Position numbers and translations under genes: made by a program. From Sinomonas sp. R1AF57 (lineage in GTDB: Bacteria; Actinomycetota; Actinomycetes; Actinomycetales; Micrococcaceae), in NCBI RefSeq assembly GCF_002224485.1, contig NZ_CP022463.1, positions 2,789,858 through 2,853,857 on the forward strand: a stretch of 64,000 bases of DNA, written 5' to 3'. Position 1 is the stretch's first letter. Each line of letters begins with the position of its first letter. Shown one piece after another: positions 36,053-42,534 of the stretch. The notes beneath the pieces are model-generated. The model saw only the letters and a program-made list of their open reading frames with translations, was not told the DNA's origin and did not search any database.

Positions 36053-36802
36053 TCAGGCGGATTCCCCGCCCGGGTGGGCATCGTCGTCGTGCGCCGGTGC
36101 AGGCAGGCCGCTCTCACCGCCCGACTCCCCGCGCTGAGCGTGGTAGGCGAGGATCTGGAGCTCGGTGGCCATGTCCACCTTCCGCAGGGTCACGCCCTCA
36201 GGAACCTGCAGGATGGTCGGGGCAAAGCTGAGGATGCTGCGGACGCCGGCGGCGACGACGCGGTCGCACACCGTCTGCGCGACCGACGCCGGCAGCGCGA
36301 GCACCGCCATGTTCGTGCGGGTCCGGTCGAAGATCGCCTCGAGGTTGGCGGCGTCGGAGACCCGCAGCCAGCCGACCTCGTTGCCGATGATCTGAGGATC
36401 GGTGTCCAGCAGCGCCACAACGTCGAACCCGCGGGTTCCGAACCCGCCGTAGCGGGCCAGCGCGCGACCCAGGTTGCCCGCGCCGACGATCGCGACCCGC
36501 CAGTGGCGCGTGAGGCCGAGAGCGGCCGAGATGTGCTCCTCGAGGTTCCCCACCTCGTAGCCGACGCCGCGCGTGCCGTAGGAGCCCAGCTGGGAGAGGT
36601 CCTTGCGGAGGGTCGCCGAGCTCACCCCGGAGGCGTCGGCGAGGGCGTCGGAGGACACTCGCTCGGTGCCGTCCGCGATGAAGGTGTTGAGGGCTCGCAG
36701 GTACACGGTGAGGCGGGCGACCACCGCAGGCGGGAGCCTCTTCCCGTCGGGCGCAGCGGCAGGCCCCTCGTTCCCCGTCCGGGCCCGTCCTGCCACCTGC
36801 AC
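36053..36802 (-). CDS. rex: Redox-sensing transcriptional repressor Rex
   Basis: A 249-residue Rex repressor, which senses the NADH/NAD+ ratio and controls respiratory and fermentative genes. The N-terminal winged helix contains SSDALADASGVSSATLRKDLSQLGSYGTRGVGY (residues ~40-75 in part), and the Rossmann domain has VAIVGAGNLGRALARYGGF with ALLDTDPQIIG. The last 25 residues are a His/Asp/Gly tail. GTG 36802 gives a slightly long N-terminus. A plausible target pathway in this window is menaquinone/cytochrome c biogenesis or ldh, but no Rex box was recognised there. Confidence 0.93.
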   Translation of the reverse strand: MQVAGRARTGNEGPAAAPDGKRLPPAVVARLTVYLRALNTFIADGTERVSSDALADASGVSSATLRKDLSQLGSYGTRGVGYEVGNLEEHISAALGLTRHWRVAIVGAGNLGRALARYGGFGTRGFDVVALLDTDPQIIGNEVGWLRVSDAANLEAIFDRTRTNMAVLALPASVAQTVCDRVVAAGVRSILSFAPTILQVPEGVTLRKVDMATELQILAYHAQRGESGGESGLPAPAHDDDAHPGGESA

Positions 36803-38434: not shown

Positions 38435-38644
38435 TCAGGCGGTCTCGCTCCGGCCGTCGACCACGGCGTTCTTCAGGTACTGCTCGACGGCCGCCTCGGG
38501 CACCCGATAGGACCGCCCGAACCTCACCGCCGGCATCTCCCCGGAGTGGACCAGCCGGTACACCGTCATCTTGGACACGCGCATCATCTCGGCGACCTCA
38601 GCGACGGTGAGGAAACGCGAGGAAGAGAAATCCATCGCAGTCAT
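38435..38644 (-). CDS. Excisionase-type helix-turn-helix DNA-binding protein
   Basis: A 69-residue protein consisting of one MerR/excisionase winged-helix domain: FLTVAEVAEMMRVSKMTVYRLVHSGEMPAVRFGRSYRVPEAAVE in outline, with helix-turn-helix at residues ~13-35 and the wing at 38-50. This chromosomal protein (not a phage excisionase) is conserved next to the bS22 gene across actinobacteria. ATG 38644 was kept; ATG 38635 is an alternative. It lies 10 bases downstream of the DAHP synthase stop and may be co-transcribed with it. Confidence 0.85.
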   Translation of the reverse strand: MTAMDFSSSRFLTVAEVAEMMRVSKMTVYRLVHSGEMPAVRFGRSYRVPEAAVEQYLKNAVVDGRSETA

Positions 38645-38654
38645 GCAAATTACT

Positions 38655-39800
38655 CTAGTGGCTGGAGTGGCTCCTGTGAACGCGGCGCGTGCGGGCAGCT
38701 TCCGCGAGCCGCTCCAGGACCTCCCGGGTGACGTCCCACTCCATGCACTTGTCGGTCACGCTCTGGCCGTAGACCAGCTGTGTGCGGCCGGCCGCGTGCT
38801 CGACGACGTCGAGCGCCTGGGCTCCGCCGACGAGGAAGCTCTCGAGCATGACGCCGGCCACCGCCTCGGCCGCGTCGCCCCCGTTCGCAAGCTGGGCGCC
38901 GATCTCGAGGGCCACCTCGGCCTGGCGGTGGTGGTCCTTGCCGCTGTTGGCGTGGCTCGCGTCCACGATGAGTCGGGGGTTCAGGCCCTTGCCGGCCATC
39001 GCCGTGGAGGCGGCCCGGACCTGGTGGGGCGAGTAGTTCGGGCCGTCGGATCCCCCGCGGAGGATCACGTGGGTGTCGGCGTTGCCGGCCGTCGAGACGA
39101 GCGACGCGCGCCCGGCGTCGTCGATCCCCAGGAACGCCTGAGGCGCGGAGGCGGCGCCGCACGCGTCGATCGCCACCTGGAGGCCGCCGTCAGTCCCGTT
39201 CTTGAAGCCGACCGGCATGGACAGGCCGGAGACGAGCTGCCGGTGGATCTGGCTCTCGGTGGTGCGGGCGCCGACCGCGCCCCACACGATGGCGTCTGCG
39301 GTGTACTGCGGGCTGATGGGCTCGAGGAACTCCGTCGCGGTGGGCAGGCCCAGCTCGAGCACGCCGAGGAGGAACTCCCGCGCGGCGCGGAGCCCGGCGG
39401 CGATGTCGTGGCTGCCGTCGAGGTGCGGGTCGTTGATGAGGCCCTTCCAGCCCACCGTGGTCCGCGGCTTCTCGAAGTAGGTCCGCATGACGACGAGGAT
39501 GTCCTCGCGAAGGTCGCGGGCGACGGCGGCGAGTCGCCGCGCGTAGTCGAGGCCCGCCTCGGGGTCGTGGATGGAGCAGGGGCCCACGATCACCAGGAGG
39601 CGGTCGTCGAGGCCGTCCATGATGGCCCTCACCTCGTCGCGGCCGCGGGCCACGGTGCGCTGCGCCTCCCCGGCGAGCGGCAGCTCGGCCAGGAGCTCAC
39701 CCGGGGTGGGGAGCGGGGTGAACTCGGCGACGCGGAGGTTGTTGGTCGTCGAGGAGACGACGCCGGCTGCCGGGGCTGCTGTTGCGGTGAGCGGGTTCAT
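38655..39800 (-). CDS. aroG: 3-deoxy-7-phosphoheptulonate (DAHP) synthase, class I
   Basis: A 381-residue class I DAHP synthase, which joins phosphoenolpyruvate and erythrose 4-phosphate in the first step of aromatic amino acid synthesis. Motifs: VGPCSIHDPEAGLDYA (metal Cys), RTYFEKPRTTVGWKG (PEP-binding), GFKNGTDG, RGGSDGPNY, and the late metal ligands in DASHANSGKD. It resembles the feedback-regulated AroF/G/H group. A leader peptide rich in Trp/Tyr/Phe and a terminator hairpin lie in the 170 bases before its ATG, so transcription is very probably attenuated by aromatic amino acid supply. Confidence 0.94.
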   Translation of the reverse strand: MNPLTATAAPAAGVVSSTTNNLRVAEFTPLPTPGELLAELPLAGEAQRTVARGRDEVRAIMDGLDDRLLVIVGPCSIHDPEAGLDYARRLAAVARDLREDILVVMRTYFEKPRTTVGWKGLINDPHLDGSHDIAAGLRAAREFLLGVLELGLPTATEFLEPISPQYTADAIVWGAVGARTTESQIHRQLVSGLSMPVGFKNGTDGGLQVAIDACGAASAPQAFLGIDDAGRASLVSTAGNADTHVILRGGSDGPNYSPHQVRAASTAMAGKGLNPRLIVDASHANSGKDHHRQAEVALEIGAQLANGGDAAEAVAGVMLESFLVGGAQALDVVEHAAGRTQLVYGQSVTDKCMEWDVTREVLERLAEAARTRRVHRSHSSH

Positions 39801-39861
39801 GGGGTCCTGTCCTTGTCTGTGACAGGCCCCGAAGGACCAGAGCCTGCCGCTGGAATGGCAA

Positions 39862-39889
39862 AGGGCAAGGACCGTGAGGTCCCTGCCCT
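39862..39889 (-). terminator. Attenuator terminator upstream of aroG
   Basis: On the minus strand AGGGCAGGGACC, loop UCAC, then GGUCCUUGCCCU form a 12-bp stem with one G-U pair, followed by UUGCC. It is placed between the leader peptide stop and the aroG start, as expected for an amino-acid attenuator. Confidence 0.8.
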
Positions 39890-39942
39890 GTTGGCTCTGG
39901 AGTCGGTACGCGAAATCCTACGCTTGGCCCTCCAGAGCCAAC
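39890..39942 (-). promoter_or_regulatory. Attenuator 1:2 hairpin over the end of the leader peptide
   Basis: A perfect 13-bp inverted repeat (GTTGGCTCTGGAG at 39890-39902 with CTCCAGAGCCAAC at 39930-39942) spans the last leader codons and the following 16 bases. It would form when the ribosome clears the leader. Ribosome stalling earlier, at the Trp-Tyr or Tyr-Phe codons, would change which helix forms; the exact antiterminator is not clear by eye. Confidence 0.7.
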
Positions 39943-39971
39943 GCAAAATACGCATACCAACGCTTGATCAT
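39918..39971 (-). CDS. aroG leader peptide
   Basis: A 17-codon frame, ATG 39971 to TAG 39918, reads MIKRWYAYFALALEGQA. It has Trp, Tyr, Tyr and Phe within five residues, all end products of the pathway started by DAHP synthase. The frame ends just before an inverted repeat and a terminator hairpin that precede aroG. Codons TGG TAT GCG TAT TTT use rare T-ending forms for this G+C-rich genome, which would sharpen a stalling response. No stable protein is expected. Confidence 0.82.
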   Translation of the reverse strand: MIKRWYAYFALALEGQA

Positions 39972-40042
39972 GCGCTCACCATAGCGGGCGCCGCGTCCGC
40001 AGCGCAAACGTGCGCCCGCATGGTGGACAGCTGACCCGCCGA

Positions 40043-42534
<2,492 letters not shown>

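Follow-up and report, generated by a model that had tools for sequence, protein, structure and literature searches.

In translational attenuators of the erm type, stalling on a leader peptide alters access to a downstream ribosome-binding site by way of alternative helices. The closest described system for the aromatic amino acids is the aroR attenuator, which lies before aroF in C. glutamicum (Neshat et al. 2014, PMID 24910972); the review through which we cite it (PMC11802643) describes a transcript-level response to Phe. Leaderless polycysteine attenuators have been reported from mycobacteria (Canestrari et al. 2020, PMID 32181921, as cited in PMC9031893). In a survey of Actinobacteria (PMC1262725), no conserved structures turned up in front of Phe or Tyr genes.

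We analyzed a window of 64,000 nucleotides from Sinomonas sp. R1AF57 in which a short aromatic reading frame and a series of RNA helices precede aroG, the gene for a class I DAHP synthase (Table 1). DAHP synthase controls the flow of carbon into all of the aromatic amino acids. A type II DAHP synthase is encoded elsewhere in this genome (C1:1409679-1410971), making aroG one of two isozymes; we looked for an aromatic leader before the type II gene and saw none. The start of the type II gene itself looks leaderless. Directly 3' of aroG, on the same minus strand, is a gene for a small helix-turn-helix protein of the excisionase type (HTH_17, 38435-38644), and a Rex-like redox regulator with Put_DNA-bind_N and CoA_binding domains is encoded at 36053-36802 (minus strand).

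TABLE 1 Features of the aroG leader element and the gene that it precedes, in window coordinates
Feature	Position	Strand	Sequence	Basis or remark
-35-like box	40002..40007	-	TTGCGC	18 nt 5' of the -10 box; weak consensus match, inferred
-10 box	39978..39983	-	TATGGT	Ends 6 nt ahead of leader ATG
Leader peptide	39918..39971	-	MIKRWYAYFALALEGQA	ATG at 39971; stop TAG ending at 39918
Segment A	39951..39961	-	GUUGGUAUGCG	Trp5-Tyr6-Ala7 codons; pairs with A' in the MFE fold; A:A' z = -10.9
Segment 1 (arm 1)	39930..39942	-	GUUGGCUCUGGAG	Within leader frame; 1:2 z = -11.9
Segment A'	39902..39912	-	CGCGUACCGAC	Past leader stop; MFE fold and co-evolution with A
Segment 2 (arm 2)	39890..39902	-	CUCCAGAGCCAAC	Partner is segment 1 or 3; 1:2 z = -11.9, 2:3 z = -9.7
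Hairpin T	39862..39889	-	AGGGCAGGGACC-TCAC-GGTCCTTGCCCT	12 bp, one G.U pair; taken for a terminator in the earlier note; covariation, z = -19.7
Mini-hairpin P4	39844..39860	-	UGCC-AUUCCAGC-GGCA	Directly 3' of T; weak co-evolution, z = -3.8
Hairpin 3:4	39821..39848	-	GGCAGGCUCUGGUCCUUCGGGGCCUGUC	-18.9 kcal/mol; z = -15.3
Segment 3 core	39837..39844	-	GGCUCUGG	Partner is segment 2, or segment 4 within the 39821-39848 hairpin
Segment 4	39821..39830	-	GGGGCCUGUC	Complementary to aroG ribosome-binding region; 4:5 z = -10.1
Segment 5	39801..39811	-	GACAGGACCCC	Portion of aroG ribosome-binding region; fold and co-evolution with segment 4
aroG	38655..39800	-		Controlled gene; class I DAHP synthase; ATG at 39800; Pfam DAHP_synth_1 (PF00793), E = 4e-84

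An earlier note, made from the sequence alone, had proposed a transcription attenuator with a mixed aromatic leader peptide. Reading the minus strand bore out the 17-codon frame with Trp5, Tyr6, Tyr8, and Phe9. The pattern R-W-Y-A-Y-F-x-L-A-L-E is kept in relatives, the frame is maintained among homologues despite changes in length, and Trp, Tyr, and Phe all occur in 68 of the 79 homologous leaders that could be parsed. The aromatic codons end in T, and these were correctly called rare: in the 33 genes of the 64-kb window, which served as the codon-usage baseline, TTT accounts for 5/364 Phe codons (1.4%) and TAT for 20/253 Tyr codons (7.9%). Against this rarity in the window genes, both are nearly fixed in dereplicated homologous leaders (TAT, 83/88; TTT, 51/57).

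The promoter sits upstream of the leader, and hence not downstream of the hairpin, the arrangement on which the earlier proposal would have foundered. The gdhA-like glutamate dehydrogenase gene directly upstream on the same strand (40043-41473) ends 71 nt ahead of the leader start, and it is in this short gap that the leader promoter lies. As 6 nt separate the -10 box from the leader ATG, the A of this start codon is probably the first nucleotide transcribed, and the leader is probably translated leaderless. A TANNNT box ending 4 to 9 nt (observed, 6 to 8 nt) before the leader start is present in 44/54 dereplicated homologues, compared with 3.8% of shuffled sequences; in most of the other 10, the start is a GTG 3 nt farther upstream. 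A Shine-Dalgarno-like motif precedes the leader in only 4/54.

The 171-nt leader is predicted to fold at -97.1 kcal/mol, compared with -60.5 ± 4.5 kcal/mol for shuffled sequences (z = -8.1; 0/200 shuffles as good). The perfect 13-bp inverted repeat seen earlier is present, GTTGGCTCTGGAG (39942-39930, within the frame) pairing with CTCCAGAGCCAAC (39902-39890), and so is the 12-bp hairpin, here called T. The parts placed between 39862 and 39971 are thus where they were said to be; the element itself is longer, running from the promoter (near 40007) as far as the ribosome-binding site of aroG (39801). The two-hairpin layout overlooked the three helices 2:3, 3:4, and 4:5 farther downstream, among them one (4:5) that involves the ribosome-binding site of aroG. 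Several of the helices exclude one another: A:A' crosses 1:2, 1:2 competes with 2:3, 2:3 with 3:4, and 3:4 with 4:5. Two consistent sets result, {1:2, 3:4}, in which the ribosome-binding site is exposed, and {A:A', 2:3, 4:5}, in which it is covered.

We examined these helices with a swap test, in which partners were exchanged among 78 dereplicated homologues (3,000 permutations) and a true helix should pair better with its own partner. A:A', 1:2, T, 2:3, 3:4, and 4:5 all passed (0/3,000 each; z values in Table 1); kinship of the sequences inflates these z values, an inflation that the null controls limit and do not remove. The control pairs A:5, 1:4, A':5, 2:5, 3:5, 2:4, A:4, and A':4 were null over the 78 homologues (z = -1.8 to +3.7), and in the window lineage alone 1:4, 3:5, and 1:T5 reached only -2.1 to -2.3. 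The pair 3:5, which joins segment 3 to the ribosome-binding site and is prominent in some Arthrobacter folds, was rejected on these values (z = -1.8 overall; -2.1, marginal, in the window lineage). Hairpin 3:4 served as the anchor for placing segment 3; segment 4 was defined independently of segment 5, and therefore 4:5 is a clean test. By subset, 4:5 co-evolves in the window lineage (z = -5.7) and in family f11 (z = -4.8) and is unclear in family f27 (z = -1.9). A plain MAFFT alignment likewise shows compensatory changes in 1:2 and in T. In mini-hairpin P4, they take the forms CGCC:GGCG, CGUC:GACG, and CGCUAU:AUAGCG; the last belongs to two loci of one genus (g156, family f1) in which P4 has grown to a hairpin of at least 6 bp, an enlargement that suggests that P4 is under selection.

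Related genomes conserve the leader residues and both hairpins upstream of aroG, with covariation. Leaders of the R-W-Y-A-Y-F-x-L-A-L-E type with the same hairpins occur in Arthrobacter, Pseudarthrobacter, Sinomonas, Microbacterium, Brachybacterium, and a Propionibacteriaceae metagenome-assembled genome, and Dietzia and mycobacteria carry leaders of the form (R)-x-Y-W-R-F-x-x-A-P-G-G-A. A covariance model (R1) for the Micrococcales form matched 48 of 120 genomes of the family, and a protein search found class I aroG in the identical 48; the element is therefore present in 48/48 family genomes with class I aroG and in 0/72 without it. On this co-occurrence and the fold z value, we rejected a chance structure or an incidental frame. 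A second model (R2) matched 118/301 genomes of family f11 and 72/394 across the class, some of its weakest matches (seven loci, for example) having been dropped because they looked spurious on reading. The DAHP synthase downstream of the element in family f24 is a different one, fused to chorismate mutase; at the six loci read there, the leaders are mostly reduced to Phe codons and the terminator tails are U-rich. Rfam gave no match above the gathering score in the window and no meaningful match in five relatives.

An aroF primer of C. glutamicum (PMC7356990) matched one genome exactly, leading us to locus L249. The leader there, MFAARFYFMSGSGASPRQLAISCAT, contains the published Phe-Tyr-Phe and is preceded by a -10-like box; both arms are present, as is hairpin T, whose tail is U6. 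Judged by position and arms, aroR is a member of the same leader family, whose hallmark (an aromatic leader, both arms, and hairpin T immediately 5' of a DAHP synthase gene) was found at L249 and with R1 and R2. Three further loci of that genus (L208-L210) also have leaders with R-F-Y-F.

Other aromatic leaders were seen before DAHP synthase genes. A Polyangiaceae locus, outside the actinobacteria (L074, about 1325-1490), has the leader MASRRFFWFGYWRAETAATGSSL, a very stable hairpin, and a GUUUUUC tail before aroG, possibly an independent aromatic attenuator. Two Rubrobacter-like loci (L030 and L033, about 1309-1480) have the leaders FYERFYYR and FHERFYYRF, with U-rich terminators ahead of a class I DAHP synthase gene.

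To relate ribosome position to fold, we treated RNA as hidden up to a leading edge 12 nt past the P-site codon and folded the transcript up to segment 3 in 73 homologues. Under this setting, 1:2 was favored in 57/73 with the ribosome on the first aromatic codon, 52/73 on the last, 24/73 one codon farther, 4/73 two codons past the last aromatic codon, and 0/73 at the stop. The switch from 1:2 to 2:3 in this model thus comes shortly after the last aromatic codon, matching a fixed spacing in the sequence: the GGCUC core of segment 1 begins 5 nt past that codon, and the distance is exactly 5 nt in 71/79 parsed homologues.

At the other end of the chain, an alternative helix covering the aroG ribosome-binding site is present, as the co-evolution of 4:5 indicates, and the site is more open when 3:4 is imposed. 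With helices imposed, its openness was greater for 3:4 than for 2:3 by a mean of 0.124 (0.28 in the window), a gain that falls to 0.055 ± 0.013 if each sequence is given the downstream end of another member of its lineage. The effect is moderate; families f27 and f24 show it weakly, and the two f34 genomes tested show the reverse. When folding was left unforced at equilibrium, accessibility of the site was unchanged between ribosome states, and 4:5 usually beat 3:4 in every state. A switch would therefore have to act while the RNA is being transcribed, 3:4 forming ahead of the synthesis of segment 5, which is plausible for a local hairpin.

The comparative evidence speaks very strongly for ribosome-mediated attenuation of DAHP synthase by this element. 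We favor, with a probability of roughly 0.6, a mainly translational attenuator that works through the chain A:A', 1:2, 2:3, 3:4, and 4:5. The leaderless peptide would be translated from the 5' end of the transcript. When charged aromatic tRNAs are scarce, the ribosome would stall at Trp5, Tyr6, Tyr8, or Phe9, breaking A:A' and leaving segment 1 free; 1:2 would form, then 3:4, and the aroG ribosome-binding site would stay open. When aromatic amino acids are ample, the ribosome would proceed and mask segment 1, or A:A' would refold; either would yield 2:3, releasing segment 4 onto the ribosome-binding site as 4:5 and shutting aroG translation. In vivo stalling, the kinetic trapping of 3:4 ahead of segment 5, and the ON/OFF direction are the steps we infer. 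Hairpin T, which may pause RNA polymerase or partly terminate it, could time the decision.

The earlier note saw the output differently, as transcription termination near 39860, and a rival reading follows from it: as in C. glutamicum aroR, T would be a regulated terminator, leader translation would decide passage, and 3:4 and 4:5 would be secondary. T is indeed found in essentially all homologues with strong covariation, its tail is U-rich in C. glutamicum and several other lineages, and aroR is a family member whose target aroF is, according to review PMC11802643, transcribed more on Phe limitation. Against this reading, the swap test found no conserved antiterminator for T, which co-evolves only between its own arms: 1:T5, 1:T3, A:T5, A:T3, A':T5, A':T3, and 2:T3 were all null over the 78 homologues, 1:T5 being marginal in the window lineage (z = -2.3). 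The tail is U-poor in the window lineage (in the window itself, UUUGCCAUUCC), and a terminator scan of the window calls nothing on this strand; the 12-bp hairpin does not look like a canonical intrinsic terminator here. The conserved helices 2:3, 3:4, and 4:5 would also be left without a role. We therefore consider this reading, the main rival, less likely for the window than the translational one; of the original proposal, the mixed aromatic leader and the hairpins before DAHP synthase stand, and termination as the output is not supported. In branches with U-rich tails T is probably a terminator, and transcription attenuation may act as a second layer where T terminates, as with the U6 tail of C. 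glutamicum.

A second alternative reverses the sign, with a stall on the last aromatic codons masking segment 1, 2:3 as the ON state, and 1:2 with 3:4 as the OFF state, 3:4 serving as a terminator without a U tract. This matches the classical trp layout (1:2 and 3:4 versus 2:3), and the modeling gives it an opening: with the leading edge set at +16, a stall on the last codon, mostly Phe, masks segment 1 and favors 2:3 in 59/73 homologues, reversing the outcome for that codon, and therefore the sign for Phe depends on the footprint assumed. Against it, no U tract follows 3:4 in any lineage read, the ribosome-binding site is not contained in 3:4, and 2:3 would free segment 4 to cover the site, shutting the gene when it should be on. 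We regard it as improbable. A constitutive structured leader that serves stability or spacing and contains a short frame by accident would suit the very stable structure and is barely credible beside the conserved aromatic peptide with its rare T-ending codons, the fixed 5-nt spacing, the leaderless promoter, the co-evolving exclusive helices, and the strict association with DAHP synthase.

The translational attenuator that we favor for aroG may extend well beyond this genome. The element appears to be a class-wide actinobacterial control of DAHP synthase. A fuller generalization, to which we give somewhat less than even odds, is that it is a widespread actinobacterial aromatic attenuator whose main output is translation initiation through five exclusive helices, with T as a timing or pause element and aroR of C. 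glutamicum as a derived branch turned transcription attenuator. Neither Rfam nor the 2005 actinobacterial survey includes the element, and aroR is its one described member. If the translational reading is true, aromatic attenuation in most actinobacteria departs from the textbook terminator. The conserved 5-nt spacing makes the position of the ribosome on the leader directly testable, and the element offers a practical handle to relieve feedback in production strains.

Compared with known systems, the element shares with trp-type transcription attenuators a control-codon leader peptide and the alternative helices 1:2, 2:3, and 3:4. It differs from them in that no antiterminator was found that would dissolve T, T sits within the loop closed by 2:3, no U tract follows 3:4, and an extra helix, 4:5, lies on the ribosome-binding site. 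With erm-type attenuators it has in common the proposed path from stalling through alternative helices to site access, but it would sense amino acid supply through codons rather than a drug and has five exclusive helices and a leaderless leader. The LEU element and translational ileS T-boxes of Actinobacteria (PMC1262725) are likewise amino acid leaders that act on a ribosome-binding site, in front of other genes and with other architectures. The mycobacterial polycysteine attenuators resemble it in layout, as actinobacterial leaderless short ORFs with clustered control codons that act on downstream translation, and they differ in using cysteine rather than aromatic codons. Closest is aroR, with its aromatic leader (RFYF), -10 box just 5', arms 1 and 2, hairpin, and class I DAHP synthase; there, the hairpin carries a U6 terminator tail and segments 3 to 5 are not evident, whereas the window element combines Trp, Tyr, and Phe codons with a U-poor tail and a chain of helices that leads to the ribosome-binding site.
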